23,962 nt of DNA from positions 1-23,962 of the IMG/VR virus record IMGVR_UViG_3300047678_000650. One strand, written 5' to 3'. The notes under the pieces are model-generated. The model saw only the letters and a list, made by a program, of their open reading frames with translations, was not told the DNA's origin and did not search any database. Of the stretch, positions 6,523-23,962 are shown piece by piece. The stretch's first letter is position 1. Each line of letters begins with the position of its first letter. Position numbers and translations under genes: made by a program. This DNA is from a virus.

Positions 6523-6527
6523 ACGCC

Positions 6528-6932: not shown

Positions 6933-6935
6933 GCG

Positions 6936-6942: not shown

Positions 6943-6954
6943 CAATCCGAGGTC

Positions 6955-7287: not shown

Positions 7288-7290
7288 TTT

Positions 7291-7734: not shown

Positions 7735-8156
7735 ACACCGCCTCCGCCAGTCCGGCATCGGACCGCACCCAGACCAACATCGACACGTTCATCGCGCCTG
7801 GGACCGAAGCTGGCGGAATCACACTGCGGCCGTTCTCGGCTGGCACACTCACGATCTGCCGCGCACTCGGCCTCACGATGGTCGTGGGCGGCGACAAGGA
7901 GCAGGTCGAAGTACTCTCCGCCGACGACAAGCAGCGGCAGCTCTCGACGTTCCTCTTCATCCAATCGCAGCCGCTCGAAGTGGTGAAAAAAGCCGTGAAG
8001 CTTGCGCGGGAAAATCGCCAGGCGTTCGAGGACGAATATCTGCTGCCCTTTGAGCTGGAACTTCCGGTGACTGCGATGTTCACGGCGATGCAGCAGCTCG
8101 AGGTGATCACTAGGCCCAGCGGCAGCAAAAAGGAACCGACTCCGCCCCCAAACTGA
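7731..8156 (+). CDS. Tail assembly chaperone, gpG-like
   Basis: A 141-residue protein, almost the same length as lambda gpG (140), just upstream of a second short frame in the -1 register. Start ATG 7731 overlaps the previous stop. It has an extended N-terminus, then LRPFSAGTLTICRALGLTMVVG, and helices QLSTFLFIQSQPLEVVKKAV and FEDEYLLPFELELPVTAMFT, which fit the helical chaperones that coat the tape measure during tail assembly. The C-terminus PSGSKKEPTPPPN ends directly on the slippery site described at 8147-8153, so most ribosomes make this protein and a minority the longer form. Confidence 0.75.
   Translation: MNTASASPASDRTQTNIDTFIAPGTEAGGITLRPFSAGTLTICRALGLTMVVGGDKEQVEVLSADDKQRQLSTFLFIQSQPLEVVKKAVKLARENRQAFEDEYLLPFELELPVTAMFTAMQQLEVITRPSGSKKEPTPPPN
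8147..8153 (+). other. Programmed -1 frameshift site CCCAAAC
   Basis: The heptamer C-CCA-AAC is exactly in the X-XXY-YYZ register of the gpG-like frame, immediately before its TGA (8154-8156). Slipping back one base continues CTG-ATC-GAG into the frame at 8153-8383. Lambda uses GGGAAAG at the same point between G and T. A small hairpin (8173-8177 with 8181-8185) lies 20 nt downstream, further than usual. Confidence 0.8.
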
Positions 8157-8383
8157 TCGAGCCGGTGTGGACGGCGAGCTTCGCCTTCACACTGGCGCGA
8201 GAAACGGGTTGGTCGGAGCACTTCATTTTCTGGGAGCTGCCGCTCGCGCGACTGCTCCAATACCAGCACTGCGCGCTGCGGGCGCATGACGTGTGGACGG
8301 TGCCGGTCGCACCGCCCGCGACGACACAGCTTGAAACCCTGCTGACGAACTGGAGGCCCGATGAACGGACGCCTGCGTTTTGA
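8153..8383 (+). CDS. gpT-like extension made by -1 frameshift
   Basis: The -1 frame after the slippery site is open for 76 codons (CTG 8153 to TGA 8381-8383), adding LIEPVWTASFAFTLARETGW and on to NWRPDERTPAF. The fused G-T product would be 217 residues. In lambda the T part contacts the tail-tube protein while G binds the tape measure. A GTG at 8165 could in principle start a separate 72-residue protein, but there is no ribosome-binding site and the slip site explains it better. Its end overlaps the next gene by 23 nt. Confidence 0.7.
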   Translation: MIEPVWTASFAFTLARETGWSEHFIFWELPLARLLQYQHCALRAHDVWTVPVAPPATTQLETLLTNWRPDERTPAF

Positions 8384-9026
8384 TCTGAAGCCCATCCAGC
8401 GCGGCATCAAGGCGCTCGCGCCGCAGGTGAAGAAGTCCCGGCGTGAACTGGCCGAGGAAGCGGCGCGCGGGTTCGTGAAGGAAGTTGTCGCCATCACGCC
8501 GCCGGCATCGAAAGGAAAGCGAGGCAACGCAGCGAAGAAGGCCGGTGAAGGCGCCATCATCGCCGACATCGCACGCGTGATGGTCGCGGCAGCACGACGC
8601 AAGGGCGTGAAGCTTGGCGACCCAGCGGAGATCCACAAACGCCTCCGCGATCCTCGCACCGGTCGCATCAATCCGCGCAGTCTCAAAAGCCCGTACCCTG
8701 TGGACGCCTCCGCGCTGCGAGCGTTGAAGCGCGACCTGCTCACGCGCGTCGGCGAACTGGCTGCAGGTTGGAATGCGGGCGCGCAAAAGCTCGGCGTGAA
8801 GCTGCCGGCGTGGGTCGCGCGCCACGGGTCCAAGCGCAGTTCTGTTGTAGTGCTCAACACCTTTCACGTCTTCCGCATCATCCTCACCAACGCGGTGAAA
8901 TACGTCACCAACGTCGAGAGCTACGACCGCCGCATTCAGTCGGCCATCAACATCCAAGGAAAGAAGATGCTACGACGGGCGGAATTCCTTTTGACACGCG
9001 CTCTCCGGCAAGCGGGTTGGAAGTAA
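8361..9026 (+). CDS. Minor tail protein, gpZ/HK97-gp10-like role
   Basis: A 221-residue, very basic protein. It has an N-terminal helix FDLKPIQRGIKALAPQVKKS, VKEVVAITPPASKGKRGN (about residues 45-62), a middle region rich in Lys and Arg, and a C-terminal part with RVGELAAGWNAG followed by SSVVVLNTFHVFRIILTN and helices. The TPP...GWNAG...N layout resembles the HK97 gp10/gpZ type of tail-completion protein, which commonly carries a TP(v)DTG...W signature; here that signature is incomplete. Start ATG 8361 lies inside the end of the frameshift extension. Confidence 0.45.
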   Translation: MNGRLRFDLKPIQRGIKALAPQVKKSRRELAEEAARGFVKEVVAITPPASKGKRGNAAKKAGEGAIIADIARVMVAAARRKGVKLGDPAEIHKRLRDPRTGRINPRSLKSPYPVDASALRALKRDLLTRVGELAAGWNAGAQKLGVKLPAWVARHGSKRSSVVVLNTFHVFRIILTNAVKYVTNVESYDRRIQSAINIQGKKMLRRAEFLLTRALRQAGWK

Positions 9027-9393
9027 CTCAGCGCTGGAGTTTTCGTGGTCTGTGACAGGCACGCCTCGCTCTGTATCGAGGATCGCGAGACGTGACCCTT
9101 GGCAGTCGAAGCAAAGCGGGTGCAAGAGCATCGGCGGCGGCACGGCGGGCGACGGTAAACCTCAACTGCCAAAAGAAAAATGGACGGTCGCGCTTGACAT
9201 CTTCGGGAATTTGGTCACGGTCGCATACGGATTTCATTACCGAGATCGCAGACGCTCGAAAGGGCGAAGTTCTTTGCTACGGCTTGAGAAGGAGGGAGGT
9301 CTATTATGATCTCACGGGAAAATGAGGCTGAGAGCTGGGGAATAAATCTCCAGAAAGTTGGTCAGTGTTATTTAACAAGAAAGGACCGCTAGA
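9027..9393 (+). other. Accessory gap with no secure gene
   Basis: About 370 bases between the gpZ-like gene and a small peptide gene, turning AT-rich after 9300. Two frames stay open: 9052-9309 in frame 1 and 9092-9325 in frame 2. The tail of frame 2 (ITEIADARKGEVLCYGLRR) looks coding, and GTGACAG (9052-9058), one base off the start motif, lies 12 nt before a CTG (9071) in that frame. I cannot support either as a gene; a decayed gene is likely. Confidence 0.35.
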
Positions 9394-9510
9394 ATGAAAA
9401 AGAGCGCAAAAGGTCAGATAGATGTGGGATTCGGTGCTTGCGGGGGATGTGGTTTGACCGCCGGGAAGCTGGCGGACAGTGAAGAGTTTCAAGTGAAGCT
9501 CTCTGCTTGA
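9394..9510 (+). CDS. 38-residue Gly/Cys peptide (tentative)
   Basis: ATG 9394 opens 38 codons to TGA 9508-9510, encoding MKKSAKGQIDVGFGACGGCG and then LTAGKLADSEEFQVKLSA. A weak purine stretch (AAGAAAGGA, 9377-9385) precedes the start. The central GACGGCG pair of cysteines is unusual. It lies in the AT-rich accessory stretch and is too short for family recognition, so chance is a fair alternative. Confidence 0.35.
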   Translation: MKKSAKGQIDVGFGACGGCGLTAGKLADSEEFQVKLSA

Positions 9511-9653
9511 GAAGCGATCAGCTCGTCTGCCAAGCAAGCCCCGACGCTAAAAAGCGGCAGGGGGAAAGTGCGGCAAGGATCGAAATAGCAACAACATCGC
9601 GCGGCGTCGAAGCGCCCCCGCGCGGGCACATTGCCAGCTTTGAAGGCGCCCCC

Positions 9654-10094
9654 GTGAAGTTCATTCAGATTGAGCGAACACTTCCGGTTATCAATGCGAA
9701 TAGCAAATATGCGAAGAAGGCTGCGCGTCGGTCCGTAACTGAGGTGGTAGAGTGGGTGTCACGCTGCTGCATTGTAAATATCCGGAAATACTCGCGCTAC
9801 GATCTGTTCTTAAAGGCAAGCGATACGTACGCAAACGGGCACGGAATACCTGTTCCCACCGATGCAGAGCCGGCCTTTTACGATCGAATCGAAGTGAATT
9901 TTTTGCGGCACGAGGAATCCAATTATGACAGGGTGATGAACGAGCTAAATGGCCAAATCGGAATAGACGAGGGGCGACTGCAGCTTCGCTACATCATTTT
10001 CCTTAGAATTGCCGTGATTTACCCGCACTTGCACAATGAATGCGTGCGGAAATGGAATGAGGCGCTTGATAGGTATTACTGTCCTCGTAGCTGA
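9654..10094 (+). CDS. Unknown 146-residue accessory protein
   Basis: The frame is open from 9507, but the residues before GTG 9654 (Arg/Ala/Gly-rich, with low-quality composition) look non-coding, so I start at GTG 9654 with MKFIQIERTLPVINANSKYA. The protein is mixed alpha/beta, with helices around SVTEVVEWVSRCC and NYDRVMNELNGQIG and a hydrophobic strand LRYIIFLRIAVIYPHLH. Base composition is more AT-rich than the tail genes, which points to acquired accessory DNA. No family or function is recognised. It leads a short cluster with the zinc-ribbon gene and membrane protein that follow. Confidence 0.55.
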   Translation: MKFIQIERTLPVINANSKYAKKAARRSVTEVVEWVSRCCIVNIRKYSRYDLFLKASDTYANGHGIPVPTDAEPAFYDRIEVNFLRHEESNYDRVMNELNGQIGIDEGRLQLRYIIFLRIAVIYPHLHNECVRKWNEALDRYYCPRS

Positions 10095-10131
10095 ATTTGA
10101 GTCAGCAAAAACGTCGCATCTGCAAGAATGT

Positions 10132-10268
10132 ATGGCCGACATCATCTGTCCGAAGTGCAAGCAGTCATTCGACCCAACAATCCTGAGAGCACTGTCACAC
10201 GCGCCGCCGCTGCTGCCGCCGGCACCGGCACTGGCTGTCCGCATTGTGGCAACATCTTCAAGACCTAG
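10132..10268 (+). pseudogene. Double zinc-ribbon gene broken by one base
   Basis: ATG 10132 gives MADIICPKCKQSFDP with a first CxxC knuckle. In the -1 frame from 10176 the sequence continues NNPESTVTRAAAAAGTGTG then CPHCGNIFKT and stops at TAG 10266-10268, supplying the second CxxC. One missing base in the CCC run at 10174 would join them into a 46-residue two-knuckle zinc ribbon. As written, the first frame runs on to 10281 without the second knuckle. The intact reading ends 9 nt before the membrane protein gene, suggesting a small operon. Confidence 0.65.
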
Positions 10269-10277
10269 CGCGATCCA

Positions 10278-10604
10278 GTGACCACGATCACCAAGACTAC
10301 CGTAGGCGCCGGAATCACTGCTGCCGTAGCCGCTGGCACAGCACAGGGCGTAGCCGTCTACACCGCTGCAGTTGTGACTGCCAACTCCGCTGGACTTTTC
10401 GGGGCCGCAGCGACTTCATCAGCACTTGCCGCTCTCGGCGGCGGCTCTCTGGCTGCCGGTGGCGGTGGCATGACCGCGGGCATCACGGCTATCGCCACAG
10501 CGGCAGCTTGGCCCGCAGCTCTCGCTGGTGTTGCAGTCGGCGCAGGTGTATATGGCGGTTATCGTCTCTGGCGCTGCTGGCGTCCGCCGTCCGGCAACAA
10601 CTGA
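10278..10604 (+). CDS. Ala/Gly-rich membrane protein
   Basis: A 108-residue protein from GTG 10278 made almost wholly of Ala, Gly, Thr and Val. It has two or three potential membrane segments (GITAAVAAGTAQGVAVYTAA, FGAAATSSALAALGGGSLAA and AAWPAALAGVAVGAGVYGGY) and a short basic tail (RLWRCWRPPSGNN). Many GxxxG and AxxxG spacings suggest helices that pack against each other in the membrane. It could be a holin-like, toxin-like or immunity protein; no family is recognised. It follows the zinc-ribbon gene closely and precedes the tape measure gene. Confidence 0.6.
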   Translation: MTTITKTTVGAGITAAVAAGTAQGVAVYTAAVVTANSAGLFGAAATSSALAALGGGSLAAGGGGMTAGITAIATAAAWPAALAGVAVGAGVYGGYRLWRCWRPPSGNN

Positions 10605-10622
10605 TGTTCTAGCTAGCGCACG

Positions 10623-10629
10623 TTGACGC
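10623..10629 (+). promoter_or_regulatory. TTGACGC start-associated motif (variant)
   Basis: TTGACGC with 12 nt (10630-10641) before ATG 10642; it differs from TTGACAG in the last two bases. Confidence 0.5.
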
Positions 10630-10641
10630 GGTGTGGTGGTC

Positions 10642-12228
10642 ATGCCGAAAGCCACCGCCGTATTCGATGCCGACGACAGCCGCCTGACCAGCGCGCTGGC
10701 ACGCATCAACGGCAAGATGCTCGCGCTGCAATCGCGGATCGCCAAGTTCGCCGGCGCGTTCCTTGCGATCCGCGCCGCAGCGGGTGTGGTGACCGCGGGG
10801 TTCGATCACTTCAAGCAGGCGCTTGATGTGGGCGGGCAACTCAATGACCTCTCGGCGAACACTGGCGTTGCTGTGGGCGATCTCGTTGTGTTGCAGCAGG
10901 AGTTCGCGAATGCCGGAAAGTCCGCGGAGGACATCGGACCAGTATTCGGCAAGATGGCGAAGACGCTGCACGGGGATTCCGCGGCACTGACCGTCGAGAA
11001 GCTCGGGCTCAAGCTCGAGGAGCTCAAGAAACAGACGCCAGCCGAACAATTCCGCACGCTCGGCAAAGCCATCAACAGCGTTCGCGATCCTTCGCAACGC
11101 GCTGCCATTTCGATGGAGCTTTTCGGCCGTAGCGGTGCGGAGTTGCTGTCACTGTTTTCCTCTGATGGCTTCGGCGATGCGGCCGCGCAGATCGGCTCGC
11201 AGGCCGCAATTCTGCAGCGGGATGCCAGTCTCTTCGACGACATCAGTGACAAGCTCGCGCTTACGGGGGTGAAGGTGCGCGGCTTTTGGATCGGGCTGGC
11301 GGACAAGGTCGCGCCGGTGCTCAAGCCGCTGATCGATCGTTTTGCGAATCTCGATCTCGCGACCTGGGGACAGCAGGCGGGTGAAGCCGTGGCCTTCATC
11401 GTCCAGGCGTTCGCGGATGGAAAGATCGGCGACATCCTCTTTGCCTCTGCGAAACTCGCTTTTGCCAACGCGGTGAACTTTCTCGCAGGCGCGTTGATGG
11501 CCGTCGCGCAGGCGCTCTGGCAAGCGATGGCCGAGTCGGTGAAGAACGCCATCACGCTTTTCGGAATCGTGACGACGGCGGACTTCTGGGTCGGCATGGG
11601 CAAGGCTCTGATCGGCATTGCGCAGAGCTTCGTCGCATTCCTGCTCGACGGTGTTGCGACCGTGATTGATTCCCTTAAGGACATCCCGCTGGTGGGCGAC
11701 AAGATCGGTCAGGGCGCACAGGCGATTCGCGAGACGGCCCAAGGCATTCACGAATCCGGCCAGCAGAATCAAGACGCCGGTGGCGATCTTCTTGCGCCTG
11801 CCTTCGACCAGGCGGCGGAACGGATGCACCAGGCATTCTCAAACATCGGCAGCGCGCTCAGCGATGGCTTCGAGAAAGGGAACAAGCTGATCGACACGAG
11901 CGGCTTGGAGCAGCAGCTCGACGAGGCAGTCGGGTCGGTGATGGAGCATGCGCAGATTGTCTCCCAGCAATCGCTCGAATCCACGGCACCGAAGCCACCG
12001 AGCGGGCCGCTGCTCGAGCCCGAGGACGGAAAGCAGAAGCCGGTGACTTCGGCGATCCAGCGGATCGGCGGGGGCGGTGGCACCTACGGCAGCGGCGACC
12101 CGATGTTGCGAGAGCAGCAACGCCAGACGCGCGAACTGACGACGCAGACCGGCCTGCTCCGCGACGTGAAACGACTGCTCGATCGCACGCCAACCAAGAC
12201 CGCGCCGCTGACACCGGCCTTCGGGTAA
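10642..12228 (+). CDS. Tail tape measure protein
   Basis: A 528-residue protein in the tape measure position. The N-terminus (ATAVFDADDSRLTSALARIN) and the segment GGQLNDLSANTGVAVGDLVV, followed by QQEFANAGKSAEDIG, are typical of tape measure proteins. A long helical region, a hydrophobic central part (residues 245-345, several membrane-like stretches such as FAFAN-type AVNFLAGALMAVAQALWQAM) and a polar C-terminal tail follow. At the usual 1.5 angstrom per residue this predicts a tail near 80 nm. I start at ATG 10642; the frame is open slightly further upstream (GTG 10633) but the start motif favours 10642. Confidence 0.85.
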   Translation: MPKATAVFDADDSRLTSALARINGKMLALQSRIAKFAGAFLAIRAAAGVVTAGFDHFKQALDVGGQLNDLSANTGVAVGDLVVLQQEFANAGKSAEDIGPVFGKMAKTLHGDSAALTVEKLGLKLEELKKQTPAEQFRTLGKAINSVRDPSQRAAISMELFGRSGAELLSLFSSDGFGDAAAQIGSQAAILQRDASLFDDISDKLALTGVKVRGFWIGLADKVAPVLKPLIDRFANLDLATWGQQAGEAVAFIVQAFADGKIGDILFASAKLAFANAVNFLAGALMAVAQALWQAMAESVKNAITLFGIVTTADFWVGMGKALIGIAQSFVAFLLDGVATVIDSLKDIPLVGDKIGQGAQAIRETAQGIHESGQQNQDAGGDLLAPAFDQAAERMHQAFSNIGSALSDGFEKGNKLIDTSGLEQQLDEAVGSVMEHAQIVSQQSLESTAPKPPSGPLLEPEDGKQKPVTSAIQRIGGGGGTYGSGDPMLREQQRQTRELTTQTGLLRDVKRLLDRTPTKTAPLTPAFG

Positions 12229-12229
12229 T

Positions 12230-12946
12230 ATGTCCGCGGCTCCTCTTCCAACGACCGGCATCACTGGCGGTATCTCCGAAACCGGCGTCGCCACCATCGA
12301 GGTGCCACTCTACGTCGAGACGCTCGCCGAGGCGCTCACGGCTCTGCCGAATCTCGGCGTCGGCATCCCGTATCGCTCGCGCTCTTTCACACAGGAGGAC
12401 GACGGCGGCTACAAGGTGACGCTGCACTTCGAGGGCATCGCCAACGAGGCACCGAGCGACGACCAGGTGACGTTCGAGCTGGATACGTCGATGGCCGAAG
12501 ATCCGATCCAGACACACCCGTTCTTCGACACACTCAAAACGCGCTACGCCTGGGACGCGGCGAAGGAGCAATTCGCAGAGACGCTGCCGGAGGCTAGCGG
12601 GCAGCAGACGGCGCTGAGCGGCAGCGGCAAGAAGCCAAAGAAGAACCCGCTGTTCGGCGTCGATAACTGGCTCGTGGTCGGCGCGGTCTTCCGCAAAACC
12701 TACGCCGCAAAGACAATCCCATCCTCCATCCTGCGCGGCATCGGCACGATCGTGGACAAACCGCCAGGCATCGAGCAGTTCAAGATTCCCGGCGCGGCGA
12801 AGAAGCGGAACTGGCTGAAGATGGCGCCGAAGATCAAACGCAAGGGCAACGCCGTGGAGATCACCGAGGAATACATGCTCTCCGGTCCGAACGGCTGGAT
12901 TCGAGACGTGTATGGCCAGGCGCAACTCGAGGGCGGGAGCGAATGA
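12230..12946 (+). CDS. Tail-tip region protein A
   Basis: A 238-residue protein beginning one base after the tape measure stop. Its N-terminal half is beta-rich (GVATIEVPLYVETLAEALTA, GGYKVTLHFEGIAN). The middle is a low-complexity linker (SGQQTALSGSGKKPKKNP), and the C-terminal half carries NWLVVGAVFRKTYAAKTIPS and EITEEYMLSGPNGWIRDVYG. Position after the tape measure suggests a distal tail or baseplate hub component, analogous to lambda gpM/L/K. No family is recognised. The stop overlaps the next start (ATGA, 12943-12946). Confidence 0.55.
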   Translation: MSAAPLPTTGITGGISETGVATIEVPLYVETLAEALTALPNLGVGIPYRSRSFTQEDDGGYKVTLHFEGIANEAPSDDQVTFELDTSMAEDPIQTHPFFDTLKTRYAWDAAKEQFAETLPEASGQQTALSGSGKKPKKNPLFGVDNWLVVGAVFRKTYAAKTIPSSILRGIGTIVDKPPGIEQFKIPGAAKKRNWLKMAPKIKRKGNAVEITEEYMLSGPNGWIRDVYGQAQLEGGSE

Positions 12947-13572
12947 CGGAGCCGCCGTTCGTGAAGCGCGGGCAGCCGATCACCGCTATCCTGTGGAATC
13001 AGCTCTGCGCCGCCGTGCGTGCGAACCGTCTCATCGCGGGCAATGGCGTGCGGCTGCGCGAGATGCCGGATGGCACGATCATCACGTTCGACGGCGGCGG
13101 CGCGGAGTTCGTGCATCCGTTCCATGTGTCCCTCTCCGGCACCGATGCGGCCACGATCCGGCCGGGCACGGTGAATCGGGTGGACGCGAAGATCAAAGAT
13201 GTGCCGCTCGCGGGCACGGACGACCAACCGCCGCCGGTGCTGAAGTTCGGCCAGCCGATGCTCGATGACGAAGGCCGCGGCTACATCTGCGTCGAGGTGA
13301 CGTGCCGCGAAAAGGATTGGTCGGTGGAGAAGGTCGAGGTCGTGCAGGTCGCCGATCCGAATACCGACGATGGCGAAGCTGGAGAAGGCACTGGCGGCAA
13401 CGGCGGTGCAGTCGCGCTACCGGGCCGGCGCGCACGCTACCCGCTGGCCATGCTGCGCGAGCGCAAGGACAAGAAGCTCGATCTCTACCAGATCACCTTC
13501 TTCGACATGCAACACCGCCCTGCCCTCAGCCCCGATCGCAAGTCGGCCACGCGGCATTTCTTCTGGCAATGA
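12943..13572 (+). CDS. Tail-tip region protein B
   Basis: A 209-residue protein coupled to both neighbours by ATGA overlaps (12943-12946 and 13569-13572). The N-terminal segment FVKRGQPITAILWNQLCAAV followed by GNGVRLREMPDGTIITFDGG is a pattern seen in phage tail or fibre-adjacent proteins. An acidic Gly-rich linker (DDGEAGEGTGGNGG) leads to a C-terminal block ITFFDMQHRPALSPDRKSA and a terminal FFWQ. That block resembles the C-terminal region of the following gene, suggesting a shared contact surface. Confidence 0.55.
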   Translation: MTEPPFVKRGQPITAILWNQLCAAVRANRLIAGNGVRLREMPDGTIITFDGGGAEFVHPFHVSLSGTDAATIRPGTVNRVDAKIKDVPLAGTDDQPPPVLKFGQPMLDDEGRGYICVEVTCREKDWSVEKVEVVQVADPNTDDGEAGEGTGGNGGAVALPGRRARYPLAMLRERKDKKLDLYQITFFDMQHRPALSPDRKSATRHFFWQ

Positions 13573-14639
13573 TCGCAGCCGATTCATGGAACAAACTCGG
13601 CGCGCTGGTGAAGCGTGCGCGGCCATTGCGTGGAGTTCGTTGCGAAACGAAGGAGCAGCCGAGTGGCGTGGTGGTCTCCGGCGACGCCAGCGGGCTGTGG
13701 CGACATCCGTGGTTCATCGAAGCGCGCCATGAGTTCAAGGAAGACGGCTCGGGTGAGTGGCGGGCGTTCATTCTTCCCGGCTTCGTGAATGGTCGTGACG
13801 CTTACATCACGATGCCCGCCGACTGGCCCGACGGAAAACCGCCCGAGGATGATGCTGCCAAGCCGCACGACGTTCCACTCACCGACAACCCTGCGCCGTA
13901 TCTCGTCCTTGGCGGCTGGCGCAATCCGCTGATGCCCGCCAGCGTGAGCGCATCGCTCTCGGGCCAAATCATCGCGGCGGCGGCCGAGGGCTATCCGAAG
14001 TTCTTCGAGAAGATCGGCGTAAAAGCCGCGGCGAAAGGTGGCGACATCACCAAGCCGGGCGCACTCGAAGGTGAGTTCGACGAAACCCGGACACGGGAGA
14101 TTCGCGCGATGGACGTGGTGCTCTCGAAGGCGCGTATCGGCACACGGCTGCAAATCGACGTTCTCGATCCGCTGGTAGACGTACAGACAGAATCCATCTC
14201 CACGGTCTTCCTCAACGATGCGCTGCGCGCGACCGAAGGCAGGGCCAAGCTGCGGGCGGTATCGAAGTATGTGCCGCCTCAGGAGCAGAGCCTCGCGCTC
14301 ATGTATGGGACGCTCCTCAACTCGGGGGACACGCAATACGATGAGTTGAAGATGGCGACGGTCTGGATCGTCTCGCCACCGGGCGCAGCTTCGGACGACG
14401 AGCCGGATGAGACATGGACGCCCTATCCGCAGCACTTCGTTTTCTGGAACCTCCAACACGCTCCGCGGCTTATCCCTCCGAAGGCACCGAATCCACCAAT
14501 GCAACTCCACACCGGGCTGGCCGGCGGCGTCGGCGACCGCATCAACGACGCGCTCCTGAGCTTCGTCAACGACAGCAAAACCGAGGCGGAGGCGTTCCTG
14601 AACCAGGCCGACGCGCGCGGCATCTTCTGGAGCACCTAA
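13569..14639 (+). CDS. Tail-tip region protein C
   Basis: A 356-residue protein from ATG 13569, coupled to the previous gene; the frame is open from 13302 but the upstream part is a shadow of protein B. It has beta-rich N-terminal sequence (GEWRAFILPGFVNGRDAYIT), a Pro/Asp linker, and a helix-strand region (TRLQIDVLDPLVDVQTESIS). Near the C-terminus it has FVFWNLQHAPRLIPP and ends IFWST, mirroring ITFFDMQHRPAL and FFWQ in protein B. Likely a distal tail or baseplate protein; family unknown. Confidence 0.55.
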   Translation: MIAADSWNKLGALVKRARPLRGVRCETKEQPSGVVVSGDASGLWRHPWFIEARHEFKEDGSGEWRAFILPGFVNGRDAYITMPADWPDGKPPEDDAAKPHDVPLTDNPAPYLVLGGWRNPLMPASVSASLSGQIIAAAAEGYPKFFEKIGVKAAAKGGDITKPGALEGEFDETRTREIRAMDVVLSKARIGTRLQIDVLDPLVDVQTESISTVFLNDALRATEGRAKLRAVSKYVPPQEQSLALMYGTLLNSGDTQYDELKMATVWIVSPPGAASDDEPDETWTPYPQHFVFWNLQHAPRLIPPKAPNPPMQLHTGLAGGVGDRINDALLSFVNDSKTEAEAFLNQADARGIFWST

Positions 14640-14656
14640 GGAATCAGTCGAAGACT

Positions 14657-14836
14657 GTGTCGCTCGATCCGAAGACCAATCGCCAGGAGCGCGAGGCTGA
14701 GAAGGCGAAGAAGCGTGCTGAAGAGCCGCCACTCAATCCGCCGTTCCCGCACAGGCGGCAGTCGTTCGATCCGTTCTTCTTCTCGCTCGAACGCGAAACT
14801 CCAGACGAAGAAGAGGAACGGAAGGAACGCGAGTGA
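14657..14836 (+). CDS. Small charged tail-region protein
   Basis: GTG 14657 opens 59 codons to TGA 14834-14836. The product is strongly charged, with an N-terminal RQEREAEKAKKRAEEPP helix, a central FDPFFFSLERE motif and an acidic tail (DEEEERKERE). A purine-rich AAGGAA lies upstream at 14638-14643. It fits the gap between the tail-tip and SEC-C genes and may be a chaperone-like or linker protein; no family is recognised. Confidence 0.5.
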   Translation: MSLDPKTNRQEREAEKAKKRAEEPPLNPPFPHRRQSFDPFFFSLERETPDEEEERKERE

Positions 14837-14892
14837 TTGACGTAATCCGCGCTGGCTGGCAGTTAGGGCGTTCAACCAACCAAGGAGGCTGT

Positions 14893-15140
14893 ATGGCAAA
14901 TCACATCGACCCACAAGGCGGCCCCTTTTTTCGAGCGCACCAGCAAGCGCCGTAAAGGGTTCCCATCCGAAACGCAGGTGAAACGCGGCGTGCGCATCGT
15001 CCGCGGCTTCAAGGAACTGATCGAGAAACTCGGGCGCAACGATCCGTGCCCATGCGGCTCGACCCGGAAGTTCAAGAACTGTTGCATGCACAACGGCTGC
15101 TTTTGACGGCAGTCGCCGGAACTACTTTTTCCGCGAGTAG
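14893..15140 (+). pseudogene. SEC-C zinc-binding protein, frame broken twice
   Basis: A perfect AGGAGG (14883-14888) precedes ATG 14893, but that frame stops at 14955 after [13 protein letters not shown]. Moving +1 at TTT-CGA (14929-14934) continues [16 protein letters not shown], then [18 protein letters not shown] and HNGCF, and stops at TGA 15104-15106. A second +1 move at TTT-TGA-C continues DGSRRNYFFRE to TAG 15138-15140. The CPCG...CC pattern is the zinc-binding SEC-C motif found at SecA C-termini and in small stand-alone proteins. Either two extra T bases broke the gene or the ribosome shifts twice; see findings. The joined product would be about 81 residues. Confidence 0.7.
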
Positions 15141-15162
15141 GGCGCGCCGCCGGCCCGGCTGA

Positions 15163-15169
15163 TTGACAC
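15163..15169 (+). promoter_or_regulatory. TTGACAC start-associated motif (variant)
   Basis: TTGACAC with 14 nt before ATG 15184. TTG 15163 is itself in frame and could be misread as the start codon. Confidence 0.5.
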
Positions 15170-15183
15170 TCCGCTGCGGGCGG

Positions 15184-17169
15184 ATGACCAGCATCACTCT
15201 CTACGCCGATGTACCCGGGCGAAGGCTCGTCTCGAAGGACGGCGCACCCATCACCCTGCCGTCGCTGGTGCTGGGGGATCAGTGCGTGTTTTCACTTAAA
15301 ACGCTCGATCGCAACGCGGCGGGAGAACCCCGTGAAACCACGCTGAACGTCCGCACGTTGCGCGCTTCGATTGGAAAGGTGCTGGAGCCACCGATCAGCG
15401 GCGCGTTCTCGGTGAAAATCGGCGCGGCCGTAACCGATGAAATTCCCATCGGGGCAACAACCAACGAAGTCAGGACGGCCCTGACGTCGATCGCTGGCTA
15501 TGCGCTCGGGGAAGTCCAGGCGAGTGCGCCTGGCTGCTGGTTGCTGCGCTTTGAATCCGCCGGCATTGTGCCGCTGGAAGTTGGCAGCAATTCACTGGTC
15601 CCGCGCAGTTTTGTTCGGATTCGGCCGTTTCAGATCAATGAACTCTGGTGGCACGAAATCCGGCTCATCCAGGCGCCGGTGGTTTTCACCGGCAGTTACG
15701 ACCGCGTGCTGCCGCCTGCGCCCAGCGTGATTCGCGTTCGGGCCGGGTCGGCGCGCGTCGAGGGCAGTTCGATCAACACCAATGAAGTCCAGGCCCTGAC
15801 CGTGCCGGCGACCTTCAAAGGCACTTACTACCTGCAATGGGATTATCGCAGTTCGCGACTGTTAGGCATCCAGGACGGGCCGGACGAGATCGCTGCGGCG
15901 CTCAACGCCATGTTCACCGATGGCCGGAAGCGTTTTGCGGTCACCAATCCGGAGGAGGACAAGGCTTACATCGAATTTGTCGGCGCGCTCGAAGCGATGC
16001 CGCAACCCCTCATGGCGACCGCGGTTCACTCGTTCTTGCCGGGCGATCTCACGTTCGTCCTCGACTTGGGCAGCGCGGAGCTGGCGACCGCTTTGCGAGA
16101 GCAGAGTGAGATCACGCTGCCGTTCGAGATCGAGTTGGAAATCGAGGATGAGGACATGAATGACCCCGCCGTGGCGGGCCGTCCCGTGACGTTTCAGACG
16201 AGCGTCAAAATCGTGCGCGAACAGATCTGGGAAGAGCTGGCGCTCGTGCCCGCGGTCGAATGGCTGCGCCCGCCGCAGCCGCGGGATTACCTGCCTTTTA
16301 CCCGGGATCAGATCATTACCGGGTCGCAACATTACCAGGCGACGATCGGCAACGGCGTGGCCCGTGAATTTGTGCTCGATCATGGATTAAACACCGAGGC
16401 GCTGCACGTCACGGTACGGGAGAATGCGAGCGGGGGCCGGAGGCTGCGCGAAGATGAGTTCTCGGTCGTTTTCACGGATGCTAATTCCTTGCTCCTCAGC
16501 TTCCCCGGAGATCAACCGGCACCAGCGCCGGGCAGTCGCGCGGTGGTAGTCTCCAGTGCCGGTCCGATTTCGGCCTTTCAGGCGCATCATCACACAATCC
16601 CGCAGGTCGAGGGATTGCCCGACGCCTTGAGCGCGCTCGGCCTGCGAATCGAAGCGATCGAGGAGTTGCTCCCGAGCGTCAATCCCACGGCACGCGCGGG
16701 GCCGGACACGGAAAAATCGTTGGAAATCGAAATTCCCGATCGCGCGGAGATGTTTCCGGGCAAACTCCCCGACCATTTCGACGCGGAGAGTGCCGCCAAG
16801 GACGGCAGGGATCTGCCGAAACCGGCAGGGCTGCTGCCGGCAATCCACGACGCGAACGTCGATTCCATCATCCTGCCACTTCCGGCAGCCGCATCGAAGG
16901 AAGGACAGGTGTTCATCAATGACCGCGGTTCGTCCGTCATGGTGCCGGGCGGGCTGGGCCGGCGCGGCGCTCAACTCGATCCCAACGGTCATGTCGGGAG
17001 CGATGGACGTGTCTGGTATCGCCTCACGCGCGCTGCCGCCACCAACTCGTTCTATCCGGTCGATTTCGAGCGCGAGCTTTTCATGCTCCACATCAATGAG
17101 CAGATGTTCCGGCCACCGGAGTTCAGCCCGGCCCGTTTTGCTCCTGCCGGCAACGCCAGGAGCAGATGA
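15184..17169 (+). CDS. Large modular tail / fibre-base protein
   Basis: A 661-residue protein. Residues about 75-140 and 180-295 are two related beta modules (GAFSVKIGAAVTDEIPIGAT ... WLLRFESAG, and GTYYLQWDYRSSRL ... AYIEFVGAL). Residues about 390-455 form a beta domain IGNGVAREFVLDHGLNTEAL ... VTVRENASG like those in many phage receptor-binding or fibre proteins. A short helix (PDALSALGLRIEAIEELL) may trimerise the chain. The C-terminal part looks like a fibre attachment domain. It probably anchors fibres to the tail tip. Start ATG 15184 is chosen over TTG 15163 because of the start motif. Confidence 0.65.
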   Translation: MTSITLYADVPGRRLVSKDGAPITLPSLVLGDQCVFSLKTLDRNAAGEPRETTLNVRTLRASIGKVLEPPISGAFSVKIGAAVTDEIPIGATTNEVRTALTSIAGYALGEVQASAPGCWLLRFESAGIVPLEVGSNSLVPRSFVRIRPFQINELWWHEIRLIQAPVVFTGSYDRVLPPAPSVIRVRAGSARVEGSSINTNEVQALTVPATFKGTYYLQWDYRSSRLLGIQDGPDEIAAALNAMFTDGRKRFAVTNPEEDKAYIEFVGALEAMPQPLMATAVHSFLPGDLTFVLDLGSAELATALREQSEITLPFEIELEIEDEDMNDPAVAGRPVTFQTSVKIVREQIWEELALVPAVEWLRPPQPRDYLPFTRDQIITGSQHYQATIGNGVAREFVLDHGLNTEALHVTVRENASGGRRLREDEFSVVFTDANSLLLSFPGDQPAPAPGSRAVVVSSAGPISAFQAHHHTIPQVEGLPDALSALGLRIEAIEELLPSVNPTARAGPDTEKSLEIEIPDRAEMFPGKLPDHFDAESAAKDGRDLPKPAGLLPAIHDANVDSIILPLPAAASKEGQVFINDRGSSVMVPGGLGRRGAQLDPNGHVGSDGRVWYRLTRAAATNSFYPVDFERELFMLHINEQMFRPPEFSPARFAPAGNARSR

Positions 17170-17357
17170 ATGAGTGGGGATGGCTCGGGTGCTTTCATCA
17201 CCGCTCGACCATCCTGACCTGGATCGGCGATGAAGCAGGCAGACGGGGTCACACCGTCGGCCGCGCCGCTGCGCTGGACCTGCTGCACGCTGCGGCGCGC
17301 GAGTTCAAGGCGCAGCGCCGCACGCCGCCGGCCGTTGACAGTGCGCCCCCGGCGTGA
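17166..17357 (+). CDS. Small coupled tail-region protein
   Basis: A 63-residue protein whose start overlaps the previous stop (ATGA 17166-17169) and whose stop overlaps the next start (GTGA 17354-17357). Both couplings support a real gene. The N-terminus MNEWGWLGCFHHRSTILTWI is aromatic-rich and the rest is a basic helix (HAAAREFKAQRRTPP). Function unknown. Confidence 0.5.
   Translation: MNEWGWLGCFHHRSTILTWIGDEAGRRGHTVGRAAALDLLHAAAREFKAQRRTPPAVDSAPPA
17335..17341 (+). promoter_or_regulatory. TTGACAG start-associated motif
   Basis: TTGACAG with 12 nt (17342-17353) before GTG 17354, inside the end of the preceding small gene. Confidence 0.6.
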
Positions 17358-18031
17358 GGATCACCGTCAACCTCGATACCCAGCTCGTCAGCCTGCCTCA
17401 ACCGCTGCGCATCAAGGCGGGCGCTCAGGTTCCGCTGGAAATCGTCTTTCTGCGGGGCCTGCAGTCCGTAGCCACCAACGCTGAGATCCAGCTCGGGATG
17501 GCGCCGAAGAATTCGAGCTCCGGCGTCGTTGCCTATGCGGAGCATTTCGCGGAAGCCGCAGGACCCTCCTACGTTGGCAACCTGAATGCCAATGACCAGC
17601 GGCTTCTCGCGGCGATCGCGAACAAGCCGCAGCTCGATCTGATCGCCGAGCTGGTCTGGATTGAAAACAACCAGCGCTTTGTCACGCCGAACTTTTTTGT
17701 GGTGGCTGAACCGCCGATCTTCACCGGCCCACAAGTCTCCGCGGGCGGTCCTGTCTATCTCACCGAACCGCAATCGGACGCGCGGTACGAGCAACTCGCG
17801 CACAAGGGCCAGGCGAACGGGTATGCATCCTTGGGCGGTGACGGCAAACTACCCGCCGCCCAACTGCCCGATCTGACCTCCAAAGCCGAGCGGATCGTCA
17901 ACGGCCGCTATCGCTTTACCTCCGAGGGCAGGTTCCAGCTTTGGAATGGCGACCAAAACAAATGGTGCACCGTCAGCGTCGGCGGCGCGGCTGGCAATGA
18001 AGTGCTCCGCATCGGAGCCGGAGAAAACTAA
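17354..18031 (+). CDS. Tail fibre protein
   Basis: A 225-residue protein. The N-terminal half is beta-rich (MRITVNLDTQLVSLPQPLRI, VPLEIVFLRGLQSVAT). The segment ANGYASLGGDGKLPAAQLPD (about residues 155-175) is the repeated spacer motif of many tail fibres and collagen-like phage appendages. The C-terminus has short strands (GRYRFTSEGRFQLWNGDQNK). It likely binds the fibre-base protein upstream. GTG start is supported by TTGACAG at 12 nt. Confidence 0.65.
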   Translation: MRITVNLDTQLVSLPQPLRIKAGAQVPLEIVFLRGLQSVATNAEIQLGMAPKNSSSGVVAYAEHFAEAAGPSYVGNLNANDQRLLAAIANKPQLDLIAELVWIENNQRFVTPNFFVVAEPPIFTGPQVSAGGPVYLTEPQSDARYEQLAHKGQANGYASLGGDGKLPAAQLPDLTSKAERIVNGRYRFTSEGRFQLWNGDQNKWCTVSVGGAAGNEVLRIGAGEN

Positions 18032-18034
18032 CTC

Positions 18035-18856
18035 ATGAAACGACACCTTCTTTCCGTCCTCATCCTACTCGCCTTGCCGGAGCTCGTCTTCGCGCAGACT
18101 GAGACTGTCACCAAGAAGGCTGGGACGAATGAGCTGACCGGCAATCTTGTGCTTCCCGCGGGCAAGAGCCTGCAACTCAACGGCACAGTCTCGGGGACTG
18201 CCCTCGGCACGAGCATTCAGCCGCGCAATGTGAATCTCGATGACCTCGCCGACGGCTCGCTGACCGGTTCCAGGGTGGGCACGGGGATCAACGCGGACAA
18301 CATCACCGCGGGCCTGCTTTCGGTGGGACGCGGCGGGACGGGCCAAACCTCGCGCGAAGCGACGCTGGACTGGCTGCTTGGCACCTATCCCGTGTTCCTC
18401 ATCCCGATGACGGAGGGCGCGGTGCAATTTGTGGACGTGGAGCTTAAAGCGTCCACCGACAACTTTGCCACGCTGGCGCTCTGGATCGAGTCGCTGGGGC
18501 CGGAATACGCGGCATGGTGGAACAATTCCGCCGCCGATCGTGATGCCCGCATCTGCTACACCAGCGATCATGCAAGCGATGTGCGCGCCTGGAAGCTCAG
18601 GCTGAATACGTATTCGCTCGCCGCCCAGATCGGGGCTGGAGTGCAGATGAAATTCATCGTCGTTATTCCCTCGCGATCCACTCTCGCCGGGTCCTGCGAC
18701 GCGTGGATGCGGCCATCCAATGCCCGGAACATCCAATGGTCCTTCAGCCGCCGGACGGCATCCGAGGCCGAGCGAGACACTTTGGGCAATCCCATCTGGC
18801 ACCCGATCGTGCCGAGCTACTGGACCACCGGCTTCATGACTTCGCCGGTGAATTGA
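18035..18856 (+). CDS. Fibre-like protein with Sec signal peptide
   Basis: A 273-residue protein with a clear Sec signal peptide: a basic start (MKRH), a hydrophobic core (LLSVLILLALPELV) and a FAQ cleavage site near residue 21. The following region has tail-fibre features: GNLVLPAGKSLQLNGTVSGT, ITAGLLSVGRGGTGQTS and a C-terminal globular domain with many aromatic residues. Phage fibres are normally not exported, so this may be a surface protein of the lysogen or a periplasmic tail-related factor. It starts 3 nt after the fibre gene stop. Confidence 0.6.
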   Translation: MKRHLLSVLILLALPELVFAQTETVTKKAGTNELTGNLVLPAGKSLQLNGTVSGTALGTSIQPRNVNLDDLADGSLTGSRVGTGINADNITAGLLSVGRGGTGQTSREATLDWLLGTYPVFLIPMTEGAVQFVDVELKASTDNFATLALWIESLGPEYAAWWNNSAADRDARICYTSDHASDVRAWKLRLNTYSLAAQIGAGVQMKFIVVIPSRSTLAGSCDAWMRPSNARNIQWSFSRRTASEAERDTLGNPIWHPIVPSYWTTGFMTSPVN

Positions 18857-18859
18857 CAT
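18853..18859 (+). promoter_or_regulatory. TTGACAT start-associated motif (variant)
   Basis: TTGACAT overlaps the preceding TGA stop (18854-18856) and lies 15 nt before ATG 18875. Confidence 0.45.
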
Positions 18860-18874
18860 CGCCCGCGGGGTATC

Positions 18875-19280
18875 ATGAAAAACGCCCTCTCCATTCTATT
18901 CGCCTTCGCCACTGTCGCATTCGCGCAAACTCCCACCCCCACTCCCCCGCGTCATTCGACCGAGTGGCTCGCGGCGTGGGACGCACTCAAAGGTTTCAGC
19001 TATCGCACCGCGTCGCCGGTCGAGCTCGAAGGAAAGCTGACCGAGGTCGAAAGCCTCTTGGCAAATGTCGAGACCACTCCGCGCGACTCGGTTTGGCTCA
19101 ATGGGACGAAGACGCGGATTCTTAAGGCCCTTCCGGGAGATCGCCGCGGTCCGCACCGAGTTCGAGACGCATCTGCGGACGGCCAATGCGGACATGGTGG
19201 CGGCGCTGACCAAGAGCACCGAGGTCATCGCGCACAACTCGGCGTTGATCGAGCAGATCCAGCGCAAGCTGATGGATTGA
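18875..19280 (+). pseudogene. Exported coiled-coil protein broken by one base
   Basis: ATG 18875 encodes a signal peptide (MKNALSILFAFATVAFAQ), a Pro/Thr linker and a helical domain to TRILKAL. Near 19126-19135 the reading must move +1 to continue REIAAVRTEFETHL, ADMVAALTKSTEVIAHNSAL and IEQIQRKLMD, stopping at TGA 19278-19280. As written, the first frame runs on with low-quality sequence to 19432. A single extra C in the CCCTTCC stretch would explain it. The joined product is an exported, helical protein of about 134 residues, a possible partner of the exported fibre-like protein before it. Confidence 0.6.
19248..19275 (+). repeat. 28-bp direct repeat, copy 1
   Basis: This stretch at the end of the exported coiled-coil gene (encoding IEQIQRKLM) recurs at 19875-19902 with one mismatch (C to A). 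The two copies bracket the vapBC remnant. Confidence 0.85.
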
Positions 19281-19333
19281 GTCCCGGCCTACGCTTCGAC
19301 GAACAGCGTCATTGCGAGGGAGCGGCAGGTGGC

Positions 19334-19348
19334 GTAGGATTTTCCTAC
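19334..19348 (+). promoter_or_regulatory. Palindromic operator before vapB-like gene
   Basis: GTAGGA-TTT-TCCTAC is a perfect inverted repeat with a 3-nt centre, one base before GTG 19350. AbrB-type antitoxins commonly repress their own operon by binding such a palindrome, so this is a likely autoregulatory site. Confidence 0.5.
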
Positions 19349-19349
19349 C

Positions 19350-19586
19350 GTGACCACCGTCCTCTCTCAAAAAGGCCAGATTGTTCTACCCGTGCCGGTG
19401 AGGCAGCAACTCCACCTCGAGCCCGGCGATGATTTCGAGGTCGCGGTGGAAGACGAAGACACGATCACCCTGCGGCGGGTCTCACACCCCGCCAACCGCG
19501 GATTGGTGAATTTGCTGCTCGCGTGCCCGTCGGCGTTCGAGATTCCGCAGCGCGAGACGGACGACTCGGTGCCGCCCGCGCTGTGA
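19350..19586 (+). CDS. AbrB/SpoVT-family antitoxin (VapB-like)
   Basis: A 78-residue protein from GTG 19350 with the swapped-hairpin pattern TTVLSQKGQIVLPVPVRQQL followed by LEPGDDFEVAVEDEDTITLR. This is the AbrB DNA-binding fold used by VapB antitoxins. The C-terminal region (LVNLLLACPSAFEIPQRETD) would wrap around the PIN toxin. Its stop overlaps the vapC start (GTGA 19583-19586), the usual coupled antitoxin-toxin order. The antitoxin is intact although its toxin is broken. Confidence 0.8.
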   Translation: MTTVLSQKGQIVLPVPVRQQLHLEPGDDFEVAVEDEDTITLRRVSHPANRGLVNLLLACPSAFEIPQRETDDSVPPAL

Positions 19587-21703: not shown

Positions 21704-21940
21704 TCAATTTGCTCCAACGCGGAGAGCAGCTTCCTCAGGCATCTTCGCCGGGACGGCAAACTGAGCCAGCAGCGCCGACTTCACGGCAGCCGGATCGAAA
21801 AGATGCAGCCGCGGATTGGGCTCGATGAACGGGATCATCCGTTTGGAGACCCAGCCATCAATCGTGCGCGGGCTGACAGAGAGGATGACCGCGAGTTGGC
21901 GTTTGCGGACAAGTTGCGAGGTGGGCGGGGTTTGGTTCAT
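21704..21940 (-). CDS. Excisionase / MerR-like DNA-binding protein
   Basis: A 78-residue protein on the minus strand with a winged helix-turn-helix: LVRKRQLAVILSVSPRTIDG followed by WVSKRMIPFIEPNPRLHLFD and DPAAVKSAL. This is the AlpA/Xis-type pattern. Its ATG overlaps the integrase stop (ATGA on the minus strand, 21937-21940), so integrase and excisionase are made from one message. It probably directs excision and may regulate the integrase. Confidence 0.75.
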   Translation of the reverse strand: MNQTPPTSQLVRKRQLAVILSVSPRTIDGWVSKRMIPFIEPNPRLHLFDPAAVKSALLAQFAVPAKMPEEAALRVGAN

Positions 21941-23160
21941 GCCTCTTGCGTCACGTCAATTTTTGGCTGGGGCATGATTGCGAACCAGTCCTTCGCAGCA
22001 TCGGGCGTTACCAACTCACGGTAGTGGCGAAATAGCTTCTCCGGGCTGTTGCCCATCTCGAGGGCTACCTTCGCGGCGTCAGGTGTTTCGGCAAGCCGGT
22101 AGCTGGCGAAGCTGTGGCGCAGCGCATTTTGCCGCCAGCCCACGCCGGACTTCTCCCCGAGGTAGTTCAGCTTGAAGGCCACGTTCGGGACGAAACAGAC
22201 ATGGCCTTCCGCCTTCTTCATCGGCTCGAGCCACGCCCGCAGATTCGGCAGGAGCGGCACGAGACGGCGGGCTTTGGTCTTCGCCTTCGCCGCTTTGATC
22301 TCGATGAAGCCGCGGTCCCAGAGAATGTCGCGCCAGTCGAGTCGCTCGATCTCGGCGGACCGGATGCCGGAGAAGGCGCCAATGACGATGTGGGGCAGGA
22401 GCTTGTCCGGGCACACCGCCAAAATCTTTCGCAACTCCGCAGGTGTGAAGATGGCCGGCGCACTCCCTGAGCCGTGAAAGGTGATGGCACGTTCAGCGGC
22501 AGTCTTGCGCTCCTGGTCGAGATAGCCCTGTTGCCGCGCCCATTTGAACGTGGTCACCAAGATGCGGCGGAGACTGTTCTTCGTTGTGTGATTGCCGTGG
22601 GCTTCCCGCAGCCAGACGTCGATCTGCGCGGTGGTGATGTCCGCGATGGGTTGCTCGCTGAAGTTGCGCTTCATCCGCGAGAGGTAGTGTTTCAGACTGC
22701 GCCGATAGACGAAGCTGACGCCCGCAGCCGTCTTGGCGGCGAGACATTCATCGGCTACCACGCCGAAGGATTTGCTGGGCAGGCCGGCATGGTGCGCGTT
22801 GTAGAACCGCACGGCGTCGAGAATCGCGCCGCCCTTCACCGAGGTCTTGGCGTCGGACCATTCCTCGATCGCGCTGGTGAGCGTCAGGCCGAATCGTTTC
22901 GTCCTGGCCTCGCACGCTCGGAATAGCTCCAGGTCGCGCAGAGTCGCCGGGCTCGTATCCCGCAGTTCGTGCTGACACGAAATGGTCGTCTGCTGTGCGA
23001 AGAGTTTGGCAGCATCGAGCTTGGCGAAGGTCTTGGTCTTGCGGCCGCCAAGGACGTACCACGCGCACTGGAAGGACGGATACCCATCCTTGCGGCGGAG
23101 CGTGTAAATCTTGACCTCAGCGTCTCCAACTCCCACGGTGATGATTGTTCTGCGTCGCAT
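21937..23160 (-). CDS. int: Tyrosine-family integrase
   Basis: A 407-residue site-specific recombinase on the minus strand from ATG 23160 (MRRRTIITVG). An N-terminal arm-binding-like part is followed by a core-binding region (KHYLSRMKRNFSEQPIADIT, with VWLREA) and the catalytic domain. Counting from this ATG: first Arg in GAFSGIRSAEIERL (Arg227), a Lys in the KAAKAKTKARRL strand, second Arg in NALRHSFASY (Arg308), and the Tyr in LFRHYREL (Tyr340). The usual His before the second Arg is Asn, as is the later His in the GNSP turn. A longer in-frame TTG start at 23280 would add 40 residues and run into the junction, so I reject it. It should act on the attachment site just to its right. Confidence 0.85.
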   Translation of the reverse strand: MRRRTIITVGVGDAEVKIYTLRRKDGYPSFQCAWYVLGGRKTKTFAKLDAAKLFAQQTTISCQHELRDTSPATLRDLELFRACEARTKRFGLTLTSAIEEWSDAKTSVKGGAILDAVRFYNAHHAGLPSKSFGVVADECLAAKTAAGVSFVYRRSLKHYLSRMKRNFSEQPIADITTAQIDVWLREAHGNHTTKNSLRRILVTTFKWARQQGYLDQERKTAAERAITFHGSGSAPAIFTPAELRKILAVCPDKLLPHIVIGAFSGIRSAEIERLDWRDILWDRGFIEIKAAKAKTKARRLVPLLPNLRAWLEPMKKAEGHVCFVPNVAFKLNYLGEKSGVGWRQNALRHSFASYRLAETPDAAKVALEMGNSPEKLFRHYRELVTPDAAKDWFAIMPQPKIDVTQEA

Positions 23161-23288
23161 GGCTTTGTGCCGCGTTCGCGAAGTCAATTTTTTGCATGAA
23201 CCTGTGCATGGAGTCTCTGTTGCCGGTGGTGCGCCGCTTGCGGAAGCGTCGTGATTTGAGCTACTTGCGGATTCTTCCAAAGCCCTCG
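23161..23288. other. Probable prophage right attachment region
   Basis: Non-coding stretch between the integrase start and the attC-like palindrome. It has direct repeats CTTGCGGA (23238-23245 and 23265-23272) and TGCATG (23195-23200 and 23207-23212), the kind of short repeats bound by integrase arms. The phage-to-host junction probably lies near 23283, where the expected GCCTAAC is missing. Confidence 0.5.
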
Positions 23289-23399
23289 CTGCAGCGAACG
23301 GCTCCGTGCGTCACGGCACCTGCTTCCACCGCCGCCTTTCCGCCCACCGTGCAGGTGCCGCGCCGCACTCCGCCGTCGCTGAGCTTGGGGTCGTTAGGC
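23289..23399 (+). other. attC-like integron recombination site
   Basis: Left arm 23289-23324 pairs with right arm 23351-23384 around a 26-nt loop. Stems are 3, 5, 5, 5 and 10 bp, with two single-base bulges (G23292, A23298) and two 3-nt bubbles. Eight nt after the right arm is GTTAGGC (23393-23399), the R' core GTTRRRY of attC. Bulged bases on one arm plus a central unpaired spacer are the hallmarks of attC. The matching RYYYAAC on the left is degenerate (TCCAAAG, 23277-23283). Confidence 0.6.
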
Positions 23400-23416
23400 G
23401 ACTTCGCACCCGTCCC

Positions 23417-23836
23417 GTGAAACGGCCCTTCTTCCATCTCATTCTGAGTTTGTTTTGTGCTTCCTCACTCGCGGCGGAGGAACGCTTCTGGACAGACAAC
23501 AAGCTGACTCCTGACCAACCCTTTCCGGCGGCAGTCCGCGCGGTGTATCAGTCGTGGGTTGGTTACGAGTTACTCCTGGAGGAGATTGGTGGCTCACACC
23601 GCCTTTGCATTGCTCAAGTCTATATGAGCGCGCCGCTGACATACACGCTCGTCAAAGACCCAAAGCAGGAGGTAGCCGACGAACCGAAGCGCAAGGAAGC
23701 CCACTGGATTTATGTCTCGCCTGCCATTGAGATTGACCGTTTCAGTTGGAGCCTCGGGCCGTTCCGTATCGGTCGCATATTCGGCGACGACGATGTCTTG
23801 CGGAAGGTTCCACAACGCAAAGACCAAACGAAATGA
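23417..23836 (+). CDS. Exported protein in an integron-like cassette
   Basis: A 139-residue protein from GTG 23417 with a Sec signal peptide (MKRPFFHLILSLFCASSLAA) and a mature part of mixed alpha/beta character (AVYQSWVGYELLLEE ... RLCIAQVYMSAPLTYTLV ... HWIYVSPAIEIDRFSW). It starts 17 nt after GTTAGGC and stops (TGA 23834-23836) one base before GCCTAAC (23838-23844). That tight framing is the layout of an integron gene cassette. Function unknown. Confidence 0.6.
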   Translation: MKRPFFHLILSLFCASSLAAEERFWTDNKLTPDQPFPAAVRAVYQSWVGYELLLEEIGGSHRLCIAQVYMSAPLTYTLVKDPKQEVADEPKRKEAHWIYVSPAIEIDRFSWSLGPFRIGRIFGDDDVLRKVPQRKDQTK

Positions 23837-23837
23837 C

Positions 23838-23844
23838 GCCTAAC
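23838..23844 (+). other. attC R''-like core (GCCTAAC)
   Basis: GCCTAAC matches RYYYAAC and is the inverse of GTTAGGC at 23393-23399. It begins one base after the cassette gene's stop. No pairing partner arm or GTTRRRY follows before the window ends, so this second site is cut off or interrupted. Confidence 0.5.
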
Positions 23845-23962
23845 CCCTATGAGAAGTGTCAAGAGGCGTGTGAACTGAGTTTGCTTCTTTAGGGTTACAT
23901 GGTGGATTGAGGAGGCAGGCAAGTTTCCCCAAGAGGAGGGGGTTGGGGGAAACGTGGTTCCC
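23845..23962. other. Unassigned right-end sequence
   Basis: Non-coding. An 8-bp inverted repeat GTTTCCCC / GGGGAAAC lies near 23922-23955. The sequence after CCCT at 23845-23848 does not fold like an attC arm and may belong to another insertion. No family was recognised. Confidence 0.3.

Follow-up and report, generated by a model that had tools for sequence, protein, structure and literature searches.

A virus of uncultured Verrucomicrobiota most likely inserted into an integron attC site by its own integrase

The stretch of DNA analysed here (the window) is a whole IMG/VR record of 23,962 bp, and most likely represents a virus of uncultured Verrucomicrobiota that was inserted into an integron attC site by its own integrase. 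We are highly confident that the window holds part of a Verrucomicrobiota prophage, placed in the attC of a gene cassette by the phage's own tyrosine integrase. This landing site was not found described for phages: a search of open-access literature yielded no account of attC as the target of a phage integrase. The features of the window are as follows.

57 to 19,432, plus strand: phage head and tail genes (gpW-like, portal, protease, coat, head closure, tape measure and tail), with Pfam PF05136 for the portal and PHROGs head, connector and tail families.
21,704 to 21,940, minus strand: small HTH-like protein overlapping the stop of the integrase gene, with weak matches to phrog_66 (excisionase) and phrog_57; kept beside the integrase gene in relatives (46-86% identical).
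21,937 to 23,160, minus strand: tyrosine integrase gene (int, 407 aa), Pfam PF00589 and PF22022 above cut-off, phrog_1 integrase; grouped with attC-associated integrases in one clade (SH-aLRT 99).
23,161 to 23,286, minus strand: phage arm from int to the junction, with repeated TTTTTGCATG / GTGCATGG arm-like sequences and a conserved CTACTTGCGGATTCTTCCAAA segment.
23,276 to 23,399, plus strand: interrupted integron attC, the half next to int, comprising everything between the CGCTGCAGCG palindrome and the right core, both included; it scores 120.2 bits against an attC covariance model.
23,287 to 23,296, no strand: CGCTGCAGCG palindrome, the junction of phage and host DNA, with the putative crossover TGCAGC inside; same junction in six other int-proximal ends.
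23,393 to 23,399, plus strand: right core R' (GTTAGGC) of the interrupted attC, read from the sequence and reached by the model match at its last position.
23,417 to 23,836, plus strand: cassette ORF of 139 aa, from GTG at 23,417 to TGA at 23,836, framed by GTTAGGC and GCCTAAC.
23,838 to 23,962, plus strand: left core GCCTAAC (23,838-23,844) of the next attC, interrupted right after by CCTATGAGAAGTGTCAAG...

The left edge of the window falls within the phage, about 56 bases 5' of the gpW-like gene, and the tail genes are followed by a Fic-domain gene, the small HTH-like gene and the minus-strand int. The window combines a tyrosine recombinase at the end of the element with phage structural genes, as expected of a tyrosine-integrase prophage. 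Judged from its weak phrog match, the small HTH-like protein is possibly an excisionase. The viral contig G614 is syntenic with most of the head and tail module of the window, the proteins being about 52-99% identical. The assemblies of the window (positions 1-60) and of G614 (G614:C1:31432-31438) both break off at the same point, gpW, so the terminase and the far end are absent from both. The window contains the int-proximal prophage end only, and the other prophage end lies outside the record.

The hairpin at about 23,287-23,388, with GTTAGGC beyond it at 23,393-23,399, had been described as attC-like in the first-pass annotation, which worked from the letters alone, and this description was borne out. 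A covariance model built from 23 aligned attC sites of other loci, with the window left out, matched 23,276-23,399 at 120.2 bits (E about 4e-28), and the mispairing was confined to the left end. The bottom-strand fold of the hairpin reached z = -3.95 against dinucleotide shuffles. Covariation in the attC family was 0.305 versus 0.084 after shuffling (0 of 500 shuffles as high), with 95.7% of cells paired. An imperfect hairpin with extrahelical bases, and structure kept over sequence, is a feature of attC and was seen here. GTTAGGC agrees with the R' core rule GTTRRRY for the attC end. The R'' core rule RYYYAAC for the attC start is violated: TCCAAAG stands at 23,276-23,282, where the left core R'' is replaced by phage DNA, and the family reads GCCTAACCATGCGCTGCAG where the window has TCCAAAGCCCTCGCTGCAG. 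The degenerate left core (TCCAAAG for GCCTAAC) pointed out at first was thus real, and corresponds to the mispaired left end of the model match. Since R'' is absent, the window carries half an attC and not a complete site. Apart from the lost left core, the hairpin is a true attC, of a cassette family found in Verrucomicrobiota integrons.

The gene behind the hairpin had been taken for a one-gene cassette framed by GTTAGGC and GCCTAAC. The cassette is present, but only the first part of the second attC was found, because the site is interrupted just after GCCTAAC by other sequence. The 139-aa ORF had no Pfam match and no relative among 210 genomes of the order. Sequence of the CCTATGAGAAGTGTCAAG type comes after (C)CTAACC in L069, L059 and L015 too, and CCTATGAGAAGTGTCAAG... 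at the second attC of the window is probably the end of an IS110-type element, given the IS110-family transposase that adjoins an attC remnant in L069.

The expectation that the integrase-proximal end of the prophage lies at this site was confirmed, as int (23,160-21,937, minus strand) adjoins it. Outward from int the window flank reads CTACTTGCGGATTCTTCCAAAGCCCTCGCTGCAGCGAACGG, and the conserved GCTGCAGC begins 128 bp upstream of the int start codon. Relatives of int were sought in genomes bearing window-type attC sites and in two orders; a single-sequence search of viral contigs with the window int gave no close relatives, and an alignment-based search found one. Besides the window, five elements of the same clade (integrases 57-75% identical) carry an attC half at the int-proximal end. 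In total, seven int-proximal ends (window, L113, a second end in L141, L071, L073, L070 and L157) join at the palindrome (C)GCTGCAGC(G), and the distance from palindrome to int is 124-139 bp in the ends possessing int. The flank of L113 (int 75% identical) is CTACTTGCGGATAAATCCAAAGAGGCCGCTGCAGCGAACGG, then the complete right half, GTTAGGC and a cassette; that of L071 (57%) is CTACTTGTGGAAACTTCCAATCCAGCCGCTGCAGCTAACAGG, then GTTAGGC, a cassette and the next GCCTAAC; that of the viral L157 (68%) is TTTTTCCAAACCAGCCGCTGCAGCGAACGG. L073 (73%) and L070 (59%) read GGATGCAGCGCATGGTTAGC and GGATGCAGCGCACGGTTCGGCGACG, both being the attC left half in reverse. As far as these sequences, drawn from metagenome assemblies, tell, insertion happens in both orientations relative to attC. 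In G061, a cassette lies beside the L113 prophage, and then a second attC left half is fused to an int-less copy of a similar phage arm. The phage arm is conserved upstream of int in L113, L073 and L071, and also in the remnant L141:3695-3800.

Some ends gave less. The attC of G614 is degenerate past the loop, and its R' was sought and not found. No recognisable attC occurred at the int-proximal ends of L114 (int 71%) and L115 (51-52%); the latter sits in front of a hypF-like gene, as read from the flank. For the G009 prophage, an attC right half was sought at its far end and not found, and this contig may begin within the phage.

The junction could also be the work of an attC-targeting IS110/IS1111-type element, or an assembly chimera, and not of the phage integrase. 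IS110-type transposases do adjoin attC remnants in this lineage, and attC-targeting IS1111 elements are known (PMC11187229). However, the stretch from int to the junction holds no transposase, the DEDD transposase expected at an IS1111/IS110 junction is missing, a tyrosine integrase alone being found at the end of the window, and independent assemblies share the phage arm as far as the junction. We regard this origin as very improbable, and keep to integration by the phage integrase.

Both ends of one element were seen in G026, whose int is 57% identical to that of the window. The left end on G026:C35 reads GCCTAACCATGCGATGCAGCTA and then the element from 9,717, right behind a cassette-like gene; at the right end the element is followed by TGCAGCTAACAGG...GTTAGGC, with the core at 35,542. 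The arrangement is GCCTAAC...TGCAGCTA before the element and TGCAGCTA...GTTAGGC after it, with 25,811 bp between the cores. As in a prophage with attL and attR, the two ends share a core, TGCAGCTA, and the flanks rejoin to an attB: joined, they give GCCTAACCATGCGATGCAGCTAACAGGCTCCGCCTGTAGTTGATCTTGTTCTCGTTAGGC, which matches an intact attC of the same genome at 58 of 60 positions. The intact attC adjoins a full integron integrase (485 bits, TIGR02249). The GCCTAAC missing from the window had been expected at the other prophage end; it was found there in this relative, and the window itself begins inside the phage. The proposal that the phage integrates into attC is thus supported by the G026 ends and the five elements of the same clade, with the crossover refined to the CGCTGCAGCG palindrome.

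G026 was the only relative with both ends visible, and it is not a phage. The element (L103/L104, G026:C35:9731-35542) is a 25.8-kb Dnd phosphorothioation defence island with DndA, DndB, DndC and DndD homologues, so the integrase clade serves a defence island besides prophages. Separately, at L103:9276-9375 in the same genome, the tail end of another phage, akin to the window tail gene, is fused to the last 16 attC bases (CTTGTTCTCGTTAGGC).

It might be argued that attC and cassette are cargo borne by the phage and captured via an integron integrase, with the prophage boundary elsewhere. The attC sites and cassettes reported from phage genomes (PMC9892861) speak for this, as does L003, which has the same head genes as the window and in which a broken tail gene runs into a cassette. 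But an integron integrase would join between G and TTAGGC and bring the whole attC, whereas the cut here is at GCTGCAGC; a junction away from the integron integrase cut site argues against integron capture. Moreover, six other ends show the same GCTGCAGC cut, its distance from int being fixed, and the two attC halves of G026 occupy opposite ends of the element. We judge the cargo explanation unlikely, and integration into attC remains our reading of the window. The join in the viral contig L003 (L003:8857-9573), where the broken tail gene meets a cassette with a complete attC, may come from capture, deletion or an assembly chimera. L003 was also considered as a second attL and set aside, as its integrase is just 37% identical and lies left of gpW, and the cassette meets the tail gene elsewhere.

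Integrase relatives of 34-48% identity commonly have a tRNA or tmRNA gene at the position held by attC in the window. Where a tRNA or tmRNA gene was recognised in these distant relatives, it mostly starts 99-148 bp from int (314 bp in L136); others had no recognised site. A tree of 53 integrases, built by a quick maximum-likelihood method, grouped its five attC cases in one clade of nine (SH-aLRT 99), the other four members being two fragments and the two without attC (L114 and L115); the L157 integrase, identified afterwards, is absent from the tree. With unknown sites ignored, one switch between tRNA and attC suffices on this tree. From these sequence comparisons, one clade of phage-type tyrosine integrases thus appears to have exchanged tRNA genes for attC as its target.

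Alternatively, the phage may have landed at an unrelated site in a cassette array, where an attC merely lost its left core. The left core could be degenerate, and other attC remnants of the family lack it through, for example, IS110 insertion. Matches to the attC model number 1-16 per genome, in genomes of 2.7-6.1 Mb, and since attC is this rare, chance adjacency to int is unlikely: an accidental attC within about 150 bp of int would be expected about once per thousand or less. A Fisher test (6/8 versus 0/36, counts entered by hand from flank lists, with L157 in the attC group) gave p of about 4e-6, a rough guide because related integrases are counted as independent. Against a chance neighbourhood there is also the same palindrome at seven ends, at the distance where relatives carry tRNA genes, and the rejoining of the G026 flanks into an intact attC. 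We give this possibility almost no weight next to site-specific integration into attC.

We infer that the integrase would treat double-stranded attC like a conventional core site, its GCTGCAGC region serving as attB. Strand exchange would occur within TGCAGC, inside the CGCTGCAGCG palindrome beside the left core. The left attC half (GCCTAACCATGC...) would remain at the far prophage end, beyond the contig, and this end would read GCCTAACC...TGCAGC followed directly by phage. The palindrome would account for insertion in either orientation, and the repeated attC sites would provide several landing places. As integration would split attC, the site would be closed to the integron integrase until excision of the phage makes it whole again. 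We lean towards the wider proposal that the whole clade of phage-type integrases adopted attC as attB, in either orientation via the palindromic box. Under this proposal each array would offer prophages and defence islands many places to land; while resident, these elements would switch cassette mobility off, and mis-excision might let them take cassettes along.

Phages usually integrate at tRNA genes or at some other single conserved gene. The tRNA-targeting tyrosine phage integrases (L117, L120, L128 and L129) are homologous to that of the window and have the host site similarly close upstream of int, whereas the target of the window clade is an integron attC, repeated in a cassette array and used in both orientations. 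As attC is repeated in an array and is also the substrate of a second recombinase, two site-specific systems would contest one host site. The window clade would be a case of a tyrosine integrase that gave up tRNA genes as target for palindromic DNA of another kind. Targeting of attC gives phages and defence islands (here Dnd) a direct physical route into integrons, and bears on the spread of cassettes.

Other mobile elements make use of attC. Group IIC introns insert at attC, and are ribozyme retroelements, in contrast to the phages or DNA-only integrative elements of the window clade. They are mobile elements associated with integrons (PMC7923331). IS1111 insertion sequences targeting attC are cited in PMC11187229; they share with the window clade the attC of gene cassettes as target, and employ a DEDD transposase with a non-coding RNA in place of a phage-type tyrosine integrase. 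Phages with attC sites and integrons were also reported (PMC9892861). Among them, the Vibrio phage Va_90-11-286_p16 is, like the window, a prophage bounded at attC sites; its excision points lie at attC, with a 68-bp repeat within whole attC sites, tentatively ascribed to integron integrase activity (PMC9892861). By comparison, the junction of the window lies inside attC, away from the integron cut site, and is tied to one clade of phage integrases.

The right-arm pattern of the window attC had exact matches at 65 stretches of species genomes, most of them Verrucomicrobiota, and was also present in viral contigs. L001 holds a row of cassettes with an attC between them, typically GCC(T/G)AACCATGCGCTGCAGCGAAC...GTCGCTGAGCTTGGGGTCGTT(A/C)GGC. 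An integron integrase above the TIGR02249 cut-off was found in 6 of 12 genomes checked, and its gene adjoins attC in G026 and G023; attC is thus linked to cassettes and integron integrase in this lineage. The relatives of int in G026, G009 and G061 scored 22-31 bits against a TIGR02249 cut-off of 265. With cassettes, complete attC arrays and integron integrases present in the host genomes, the window hairpin is neither a poorly scoring site nor a solitary one.

Several further attC remnants were noted. In several Verrucomicrobiota genomes, attC remnants have an IS110-family transposase gene as neighbour (L063:152-1399, L069:4530-5831 and L106:15986-17449), which suggests an IS110 counterpart of the attC-targeting IS1111 elements. 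Atypical attC left ends had been considered as more phage junctions and were dropped, as IS110-family transposases adjoin L063 and L069 (by Pfam) and L027 (by sequence likeness). At L001:6134-6240 (G001), provirus DNA takes the place of the attC right arm, starting from a second TGCAGC-like spot; this provirus has a distant integrase only, at its far end, and a second phage lineage may use attC. At G023:C116:17957-17972 (L174), an attC left half runs into the 3' part of an endolysin-like gene, beyond which lie a tRNA-Leu-like sequence and a decayed integrase, and this might be a decayed remnant of an attC-type phage end.
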